Virus record (IMG/VR): IMGVR_UViG_3300032560_000079
Span: 1 to 32,822 of that record
Length of the DNA stretch: 32,822 nt
Strand: one strand, 5' to 3'
Source: a virus
Below are positions 23,273 to 28,710 of this stretch, one piece after another. A model generated the notes under the pieces. The model was not told the origin of the DNA and did no database searches. It worked only from the letters and a program-made list of their open reading frames with translations. A program made the position numbers and the translations under genes. Each line of letters opens with the position of its first letter. Position 1 is the first letter of the stretch.

Positions 23273-23281
23273 ATAACCCAG

Positions 23282-23298
23282 CGGGGATTCTCACCCCG
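23282..23298. terminator. Small GC hairpin between convergent operons, possible terminator
   Basis: CGGGG (23282-23286) pairs with CCCCG (23294-23298) around a 7-base loop, 10 bases after the phosphoesterase stop and 53 before the end of the left operon. Following bases are only pyrimidine-rich (ACCTTCCCTTTAT), so an intrinsic terminator is possible but weak in either direction. Confidence 0.35.
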
Positions 23299-23350
23299 AC
23301 CTTCCCTTTATCAATGAGATATTCTAAATATTAAATTACCAGGTTAATCT

Positions 23351-27388: not shown

Positions 27389-27535
27389 AATTTTCCTTAA
27401 TTTATCTAAACTTACTTGATATCAGTTGTGTGCTGATAATTGTTATTGTAAACACAAATTTACGGCATAGTGTTAATAAACATCAAAAATAATTAAAATA
27501 ATTAATTCTGTAAATAAATGTGTACAATAAACAAC
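27389..27535. promoter_or_regulatory. Divergent control region between left and right early operons
   Basis: A 147-base AT-rich gap between a minus-strand operon and the Cro-like gene on plus. It holds a dyad TATCAG-N7-CTGATA (27420-27438) and two inverted near-copies of TTATTGTA(A/C)ACA (27443-27454 on plus; 27519-27530 on minus, 11 of 12 identical). These are likely operators for the Cro-like protein. I cannot place promoter hexamers convincingly. Confidence 0.55.
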
Positions 27536-27697
27536 ATGGACAAACAATACTTTATAGAAAAAGCAGGCACACCTTCTAAGTTAGCCAGGTTGCTTGGTGT
27601 AACACGTCAAGCTGTTAATAATTGGCAACAAATACCTTCATTGCGAATATTTCAACTAAGAGTTTTGCGGCCTGAATGGTTTGACGTTATAAATTAG
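27536..27697 (+). CDS. Cro-like helix-turn-helix repressor
   Basis: A 53-aa protein (MDKQYFIEKAGTPSKLARLLGVTRQAVNNWQQIPSLRIFQLRVLRPEWFDVIN). Residues 12-31 (TPSKLARLLGVTRQAVNNWQ) form the helix-turn-helix of the Cro/YdaS type. The short length fits a Cro. It is the first gene of the right early operon and lies beside operator-like repeats, so it should repress both divergent promoters as in lambda. No CI partner gene is present next to it. No strong ribosome site is visible; ACAAC precedes the ATG. Confidence 0.75.
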   Translation: MDKQYFIEKAGTPSKLARLLGVTRQAVNNWQQIPSLRIFQLRVLRPEWFDVIN

Positions 27698-27738
27698 GAT
27701 ACAATCCAAACCGTTGTCGTGCAAAACAACAAGTTGAG

Positions 27739-27837
27739 GCCACTTAGAGCTAATTTCTGCTTTATCCAATAGACGTGGGAACGTATTGGATAGAGTTTGC
27801 ACCAGAGATTAGCCTTAAGTGGCTTTTTTGTTTTTTA
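27739..27837 (+). terminator. Long GNRA-capped hairpin ending in a T-run: terminator or structured RNA after cro
   Basis: The left arm 27739-27759 pairs with 27803-27823 over 21 positions, with one A-C mismatch and two G-U pairs. Inside, 27763-27770 pairs with 27785-27792 (8 bp), then a two-base bulge (A71, G72), ACGT/ACGT (27773-27776 with 27781-27784) and a GGGA loop, which fits the GNRA tetraloop rule. TTTTTTGTTTTTT follows at 27824-27836. This is much longer than a normal terminator and lies 42 bases after cro, where lambda has tR1. It could be a terminator, a stable small RNA, or a polymerase-modifying element. Confidence 0.75.
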
Positions 27838-28053
27838 AATGGCATCCGTACCCCACACGGAGCAGAGCGTTTGAATGGACGGCTTGGGACAAAACACCGC
27901 ACTCTGATACACCCCAGAGCAAAACGTGACCGAACTTGGTTTAGGTATCGGTAAAGCAATTGGTAGCTCAGGTGGAAAACTAGGCCAGTTGTATAAGCGA
28001 ATAAACCCGTCAAGCGCACTTGGGCTTTTTGTGTAGATAACTTAAGATTAATC
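27838..28053 (+). other. Non-coding stretch rich in hairpins before the replication genes
   Basis: No convincing gene lies in this 216-base stretch. Visible stems include TCCGT/ACGGA (loop ACCCCAC, from 27845), CTCTG/CAGAG (near 27900-27920), ACCGA/TCGGT (near 27929-27952), TGGTTTAG/CTAGGCCA with G-U pairs, and CAAG/CTTG followed by GGGCTTTTT at about 28011-28032, which resembles a terminator. It may be a structured leader or origin-associated RNA. A 118-codon minus-strand frame crosses it but looks spurious. Confidence 0.45.
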
Positions 28054-28131
28054 ATGATGAATAACAATATAGCTGGAGAGGGAATGGTACTATCCACCCT
28101 AGTAGAACCTATGGACAAACGATATGACTAA
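28054..28131 (+). CDS. Possible leader peptide before the replication genes
   Basis: A 25-codon open frame (MMNNNIAGEGMVLSTLVEPMDKRYD) ends in a TAA that overlaps the next gene's start by 8 bases. The overlap would allow coupled translation of the 77-aa gene, which has no strong ribosome site of its own. The ribosome site here is weak (TTAAGATTAATC). I include it as a tentative feature only. Confidence 0.3.
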   Translation: MMNNNIAGEGMVLSTLVEPMDKRYD

Positions 28132-28357
28132 AGATGAACTACAGTCTTATTTTAAAAAGCCCATTTCTTTAGATGAAGCAAAAAAAATGGGGTTAACTAA
28201 AGATCAAATTTACAATTCAGTAAAAAAAGGATGGCTAGTAAACATTAAAAGATTTGATGATTGGGGCAGAGTTATTAAAGGTAAAGGTTTATTTGTAATA
28301 CCTGGAAATAACGAACCTGAATACGATACAAAAACTTTACAAGGAATTTGGAAATGA
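28124..28357 (+). CDS. Unknown protein, N-terminal part of replication region
   Basis: A 77-aa Lys-rich protein (MTKDELQSYFKKPISLDEAKKMGLTKDQIYNSVKKGWLVNIKRFDDWGRVIKGKGLFVIPGNNEPEYDTKTLQGIWK). Residues 15-40 could form a winged or homeodomain-like helix pair (EAKKMGLTKDQIYNSVKKGWL), then beta-type segments. It is coupled to the O-like gene by an ATGA overlap. It may supply the DNA-binding half of a replication initiator that is one protein in other phages. That is an inference from order. Confidence 0.6.
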   Translation: MTKDELQSYFKKPISLDEAKKMGLTKDQIYNSVKKGWLVNIKRFDDWGRVIKGKGLFVIPGNNEPEYDTKTLQGIWK

Positions 28358-28710
28358 CATTTGAAGATTTTTGGAAAGCCTGGCCCAAGTCAACTCGCAA
28401 GGGCGGTAAGTCAGAATGTTTAAAAAAATGGCAGAAATACTACTGTGACACATGTTCTGACCAAATAATCAAACATGTGGAATGGATGAAGACTACGAAT
28501 GATTGGCGCAAAGACAATGGCTCCTTTATACCAGCGCCCCTTGTTTACCTTAACCAGCAGCGCTGGGATGGCGCTGAGATACCTGAAACAAGCGTAATGG
28601 TCCAAGAACGTGATCCTTACTTGGTTAAATTGGATGAGGAACGCAAGAACTTTATGCCCATGCCTGAGCACATCAGAGAAAAAATTAAGGGGATTGGTCG
28701 TGGAAATTAA
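28354..28710 (+). CDS. Replication initiation-like protein (C-terminal domain of phage O-type proteins)
   Basis: A 118-aa protein. The pattern FEDFWKAWPKSTRKGGKSECLKKWQKYY ... IIKHVEWMKTTNDWRKDNGSFIPAPLVYLNQQRWDG is the one seen at the C-terminal end of many phage replication proteins (F..FW..YP....K..A...W.K, then FIP.P..WLN..RW). Such domains recruit host helicase loading. Here it stands alone, without the usual N-terminal DNA-binding half. ATG 28354 has AAGGAATTTGG upstream; the TTG at 28348 is less likely. Confidence 0.75.
   Translation: MTFEDFWKAWPKSTRKGGKSECLKKWQKYYCDTCSDQIIKHVEWMKTTNDWRKDNGSFIPAPLVYLNQQRWDGAEIPETSVMVQERDPYLVKLDEERKNFMPMPEHIREKIKGIGRGN

Follow-up and report, generated by a model that had tools for sequence, protein, structure and literature searches.

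A putative noncoding RNA of two structured modules, which has no match in Rfam and belongs to an apparently undescribed RNA family of water-dwelling phages, lies behind a Cro-like gene in the 32.8-kb virus record IMGVR_UViG_3300032560_000079 (hereafter the window, meaning the whole stretch of 32,822 nucleotides that was analysed). The best explanation as a whole, held with about as much confidence as doubt, is that of a two-module phage noncoding RNA in which the 5′ module would act as a portable transcriptional gate. The family is frequent in phage contigs (at least 174 loci) and has a clear secondary structure with several pseudoknots. Few large structured phage RNAs are known, and the function of those that are, GOLLD and ROOL, is still open.

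Matches to PHROGs in the window include portal, major head and head-closure proteins, a Sak-like annealing protein, a RecE-like exonuclease, NinB and a Cro-like regulator, from which we infer that the phage is a P22-like podovirus. The RNA locus lies, as do all of its features given below in window coordinates, on the plus strand. It is preceded directly by the open reading frame of the Cro-like DNA-binding protein (27518-27697; phrog_409, transcriptional regulator, E 7.6e-9) and followed by small genes and replication-initiation-like genes, among them one at 28357-28710 (phrog_9474, E 8.5e-15). Elsewhere in the window, a tRNA at 23274-23345 on the minus strand was called by Rfam (46.3 bits) and not by ARAGORN.

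An earlier note on this DNA had described an unusually long hairpin after cro, whose sequence and coordinates were confirmed against the window. Its long stem, P2 (27739-27759 with 27803-27823), spans 21 positions with a single A-C mismatch (A27748, C27814) and encloses an inner arm, P3 (27760-27795; 27760-27771 with 27784-27795, 12 pairs), featuring a two-base bulge (GA), CGT/ACG and a GGGA loop. The thermodynamic fold that the note had proposed as a check places the hairpin far beyond chance: the region 27725-27850 folds at -50.7 kcal/mol, compared to -25.5 +/- 3.6 kcal/mol for 200 shuffled sequences, none of which reached as low a value (z -7.04). The hairpin belongs to a larger RNA, as its core and as the body of the 5′ module. 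Just upstream, a small hairpin, P1 (GTTGT/ACAAC, 27713-27730), presents in its loop the sequence GTGCAAA (27719-27725), exactly complementary to TTTGCAC (27796-27802), an unpaired 7-nt bulge between P3 and the 3′ strand of P2, and these two strands are predicted to pair, joining P1 loop and P2 bulge in a pseudoknot. Neither the bulge as partner of the P1 loop nor the conserved structured domain past the T-run appeared in the earlier note, which had also not recognised that the GGGA loop of the window is unconserved. The GNRA loop as a feature contacting a protein or another RNA was rejected, as the loop is of GNRA type in just 2 of 57 related arms.

Relatives, gathered by neighbouring proteins and a DNA pattern, gave nhmmer matches in at least 174 loci, and the pairing of the two pseudoknot strands was followed through their 5′ modules, which fall into types A, B and C. 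Among the matches listed, 64 of 104 distinct modules match exactly over 7 nt at the equivalent positions, with 25 different heptamers, whereas the heptamer of one family matches the module of another in 7 of 3754 swapped pairs. The 40 modules that fail this strict test belong, by eye, mostly to types B and C and to a subtype with a pseudoknot strand not ending in AC-C; locus L214, at least, represents a true loss of exact heptamer complementarity. In a set of type A modules anchored on their core (TTTAC.CATGC / GCAGT.GTAA), which was assembled later and overlaps the first, 122 of the 124 distinct modules among the matches listed pair over 7 nt or more (36 strands), compared to 104 of 2206 swaps. 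Because the heptamer covaries in this way while swapped strands rarely match, the sequence comparison shows the pseudoknot of P1 loop and P2 bulge to be maintained. RNAalifold on 59 type A modules detected double changes at 22 of 29 pairs. The module of the window is without this inner motif of type A, yet has the pseudoknot. Type B modules are predicted to fold differently and have their own long-range helix, which in 55 of the 57 modules is exact over 7 nt or more (36 strands), versus 173 of 3076 swaps. Compensatory changes, whose absence from relatives the earlier note had named as evidence against its reading, are thus abundant, and they support its suspicion of something more than an ordinary terminator.

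Lambda tR1 is a terminator-like hairpin that follows the cro gene, and the hairpin of the window likewise resembles a terminator and follows a Cro-like gene. A plain intrinsic terminator in the tR1 position, merely a long one, would account for the near-perfect stem with its one A-C mismatch and for the T-run. The arrangement typical of intrinsic terminators, a stable stem followed directly by a U-run, is indeed present: P2 runs into T6-G-T6 (27824-27836, that is 27824-27829 and 27831-27836), and stem and U-run together close the 5′ module. A run of T5 or longer is retained in 101 of 107 relatives, and among the matches listed the run is of four or fewer in 6 of 107; termination would therefore not belong to the function in every member. 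Such members without a real T-run, the covarying pseudoknot, the conserved structured RNA behind it, a -10 box of its own and the unrelated gene contexts elsewhere all set the module apart from tR1, and make the plain terminator a very improbable explanation. The earlier note's parallel with tR1, drawn from the position after cro, proved not to be general, since in other phages the module lies amid head genes, next to tRNA genes or elsewhere.

Behind the U-run, comparison of relatives shows a second domain, conserved and likewise pseudoknotted, here named alpha, of about 190 nt (27844-28030), which comprises helices P4, P5, P6, P7, P8 and P9 and ends in CTTGGGCTTTTT. Of at least 174 alpha loci, 169 had both ends and 168 were extracted (L076, with an end missing, was dropped), giving 107 distinct sequences; 79 remained after a 97% identity filter, and 78 were aligned (L170 was incomplete, and the ends of L002, L184 and L207 were trimmed). 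The P4 hairpin (27845-27887) has a stem drawn by eye from the alignment and a loop (27853-27855) whose pairing with 27885-27887 was included in the covariation count, as was P5 (27868-27871 with 27878-27881), which is enclosed in that pairing. The loop of P7 (27929-27935 with 27945-27952) is predicted to form a pseudoknot between 27938-27943 and 28002-28007, with covariation at 5 of 6 pairs of the pseudoknot and double changes at 11 of 13 pairs when both helices are taken together, and P8 (27956-27963 with 27985-27992) has double changes at all 8 of its pairs. The hairpin inside P6 was omitted from the pair counts, its register varying between sequences.

RNAalifold without pseudoknots predicts 29 pairs for alpha, 20 of them with compensatory changes. 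A structure model of 33 pairs that includes one explicit pseudoknot leaves 97.9% of 2574 cells paired across the 78 sequences, with changes on both sides at 25 of 33 pairs and 456 double-change cells; in 500 shuffles these values averaged 79.1%, 19.9 pairs and 125 cells, none being as high as in the real alignment, and sliding the partner by one to three columns reduced the double-change cells from 456 to between 13 and 86. Alpha further contains long unpaired stretches that are nearly invariant, e.g. UGNAUGG, CACCG, AAGYGAA and UCANGNGNACUUGG. Such stretches are usual in RNAs that bind something or adopt a precise tertiary fold. A third conserved element, a short hairpin of the form TGGAGAGGG...CCACCCT (28070-28110), lies before the next gene and shows weak covariation (2 of 11 pairs).

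A coding function was rejected, as no frame stays open throughout the 78 homologs (at best 18 of 78, the frames not having been put in register), and the annotation of a "hypothetical protein" across this RNA in phage genome MW202484 is probably spurious. No family was matched by Rfam 15 covariance models in the RNA region of the window at E values up to 10, nor in a set of 7 loci, and a set of 15 loci yielded just a tRNA; with loose thresholds, chance matches alone were obtained. In the open-licence PMC literature, no description of this RNA was recognised among the papers listed.

The combinations in which both modules occur show them to be exchanged among related phages, and the locus is modular, with 5′ types A, B and C combined with 3′ domains alpha, beta and gamma. 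Counted as loci, several of which are pieces of one contig, at least 108 have A with alpha, at least 41 B with alpha, at least 9 C with alpha, at least 36 B with beta and at least 12 B with gamma. Beta (e.g. L136 from 3606; L051, reverse complement, from 6195) and gamma (e.g. L135 from 3555; L148 from 3005) are other conserved 3′ RNAs that occupy the slot of alpha behind a type B module. Compensatory double changes are seen at 8 of 52 predicted pairs in beta and at none in gamma (4 rows, too uniform for covariation) or in the leader delta1 described below (2 rows). Neither beta nor gamma has a meaningful Rfam match, the gamma region giving just a match to the long hairpin mir-876 below the gathering score and a weaker one to Atu_Ti4. 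In an enlarged set of at least 135 type A instances, the module is followed by alpha in 82, by beta in 10, by gamma in 3 and by none of these in 40. Every alpha domain with enough upstream sequence, in turn, has a 5′ module in front of it.

Further conserved-looking RNAs were noted behind type A modules in L280, L289, L295, L303 and L317, in L281, L299, L313 and L321, and in L297, in L312, and in L323 and L326, some of which start much like alpha (CCGTCAGGGCGCGTTAGC and variants).

The 5′ module also occurs, in gene contexts that are unrelated, in cultured marine phages. Type A modules are found in Pseudoalteromonas phages BS5, HS2, Pq0 and H105/1, in several Vibrio breoganii phages and in Vibrio phage NF. 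In BS5 the module has head morphogenesis and scaffold genes on either side, in Pq0 it follows the major capsid gene, and in NF its place is between early genes. In Vibrio phage 1.085.O (L380, 6980-7254), the U-run is followed within a few nt by a tRNA-Trp and then by a tRNA-Arg, and in L328 a tRNA-Arg is located about 200 nt behind the module; tRNA genes in this position do not occur in the relatives of the window. Behind the tRNA-Arg of 1.085.O, more unannotated, structured-looking sequence was seen. A complement between loop and strand was detected by script in 4 of 5 cultured-phage modules examined (7-8 nt in L380, L381, L382 and L383), and in BS5 (L379) a 6-nt complement, GTGGTG/CACCAC, was recognised by eye. 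Occurring amid head genes and tRNAs, the type A module is therefore not tied to cro or to replication.

Promoter-like signals recur at the 5′ end whatever the upstream gene. A -10-like box, TACAAT (27700-27705), directly follows the cro stop codon in the window, and a box departing from TATAAT by no more than one base, in most cases 8-12 nt ahead of P1, is present in 80 of 92 distinct upstream regions; these are the regions where P1 was located by anchor patterns, some of which (type C rows) were misplaced. No good -35 sequence was found near the TACAAT of the window, which counts against the gate described below, and a generic promoter scan makes no call there. According to simple ORF calls of our own, and again counting loci rather than contigs, the downstream gene is co-directional with the RNA in 89 of 92 lake-phage loci, as is the gene upstream in 83 of 89. 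The co-direction of the downstream gene counts against the gate, because a leader would give the same pattern.

A leader that governs how the replication gene downstream of it is translated or attenuated deserves consideration in this respect. Rep pseudoknots of the IncI complex pair the hexamers UUGGCG and CGCCAA. Two kinds of compact leader, both in the slot of alpha and directly before replication genes, were noticed by eye in related lake phages. One, delta1 (L033, L053, L056, L066, L022, L073 and L020), has a putative loop-strand pseudoknot UUGGCGG/CCGCCAA (UUGACGG/CCGUCAA in L020) and a long stem with a U7-U8 run, and its end comes a short distance ahead of the replication gene's ATG; we take its UUGGCG and CGCCAA to resemble the IncI-complex hexamers. 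The other, delta2 (L018, L034, L046, L054, L062 and others, 24 matches), has an apparent pseudoknot CACCUU/AAGGUG, with variants, and is mostly without a long U-run. In 65 of 92 lake-phage loci, moreover, the first gene downstream is replication-like. IncI-complex plasmids, whose rep leader pseudoknots are the subject of titles cited in PMC10724649, have a pseudoknotted leader before a replication gene as well. Unlike these plasmid leaders, the RNA of the window is without UUGGCG/CGCCAA and its family is not restricted to replication genes: the RNA comes after the replication-like gene in some loci (e.g. L002, L163 and L186), and in cultured phages the module precedes head genes or tRNAs. A leader tied to replication genes, which has very little probability in our view, was dropped on account of these other contexts in marine phages. 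A search of plasmids with L139 as query found none.

The recurring order of promoter-like box, pseudoknotted module, and stem with U-run, followed by a varying RNA, tRNA or gene, makes a gate the simplest device that fits. Transcription would start at P1 from the adjacent -10 box, and the nascent 5′ module, pseudoknot included, would fold while RNA polymerase is arriving at the U-run. A share of the transcripts would stop there as a short RNA with a length of about 115 nt, and the rest would read through into a long form of about 320 nt or more carrying the 3′ domain. The 5′ module might thus be placed as a portable gate before any structured RNA behind it, be it alpha, beta, gamma or tRNAs, and the long RNA would act in infection as a structured noncoding RNA in the manner of GOLLD and ROOL. 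Transfer RNAs placed immediately after a terminator would be unexpected if read-through were not high. A broader proposal, which we put forward tentatively and would not yet bet on, is that of a widespread cassette of promoter, pseudoknotted 5′ gate (A, B, C and rarer types) and large structured 3′ RNA (alpha, beta, gamma and others) or tRNAs, exchanged as units, with the 5′ module setting the amount of the 3′ RNA. If the gate reading is true, it would add a new RNA device by which transcription is made conditional, and one that has branched into several forms lacking similarity in sequence.

The same features may also be read as one or more purely trans-acting RNA genes, the 5′ module being a self-contained small RNA with its 3′ end at the U-run and the 3′ domain a second RNA produced by leaky read-through, with no gating involved. 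The -10 box, the canonical stem with T-run, the varying gene contexts and the single copy in the complete genome MW202484 would all agree with this, whereas the 3′ modules and the tRNA genes of Vibrio phages, which begin a few to about 25 nt behind the U-run, are too close to it for a separate promoter, and the constant company of a 5′ module at alpha is equally unexpected; we regard this possibility as rather unlikely.

An RNA acting on RNA polymerase, like the HK022 put elements, was among the candidates of the earlier note. As described in PMC9378689, put RNAs of about 70 nt form two stem-loops, bind RNA polymerase and suppress termination, and occur twice per genome, one per early operon, with putL at the transcript start. 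A put-like module would bind RNA polymerase while nascent and confer terminator resistance, and thereby full transcription of the structured RNA and operon behind it. Like putL and putR, the module is a structured phage RNA at a putative transcript start, in the early region in relatives of the window, and the tRNAs and long untranslated RNAs behind it do need to be transcribed. Fold and copy number differ: compared with put RNAs, the 5′ module is longer (about 115 nt), pseudoknotted, itself ends in a terminator-like U-run and is followed by further RNA domains, and MW202484 has a single 5′ module, along with one 3′ domain, where put would be present in two copies. A second copy was found neither in that complete genome nor in the window, which has one and may be incomplete. 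A put-like action is accordingly improbable, if less so than a plain terminator.

With the gate as the preferred reading, the closest known likeness is to GOLLD and ROOL, which PMC12286853 describes as large phage-borne RNAs with several pseudoknots and with function open, often near tRNA genes, GOLLD having a conserved 3′ region and a variable 5′ region. The family of the window is likewise phage-encoded and large, with several pseudoknots. It differs in being smaller (about 320-550 nt), in a 5′ module ending in stem and U-run, and in that both modules are swapped as units, and Rfam detected no covariance-model or sequence relation to either RNA in the window or its relatives. It is like GOLLD and ROOL in anatomy and not a member, and comparative evidence suggests a free-standing phage noncoding RNA, similar to them in kind, with a 5′ module that would end in a terminator-like gate. 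Since some members reside in cultured phages, the role of such RNAs in infection is directly testable.

In blastn with the alpha RNA against 50,697 phage records, MW202484 was the one record found, other matches being short or weak. The idea that the RNA belongs to the host, or is common in prophages, was rejected: the alpha pattern has a single match among GTDB genome contigs, and the type A core pattern is specific, being present in 1 of 399 genomes of one bacterial order, the match being the same phage-like contig. This 8.8-kb contig, L278 (CANLWQ010000069.1), belongs to a Comamonadaceae MAG, and is a hint to the host group or else a phage contig binned into that MAG.
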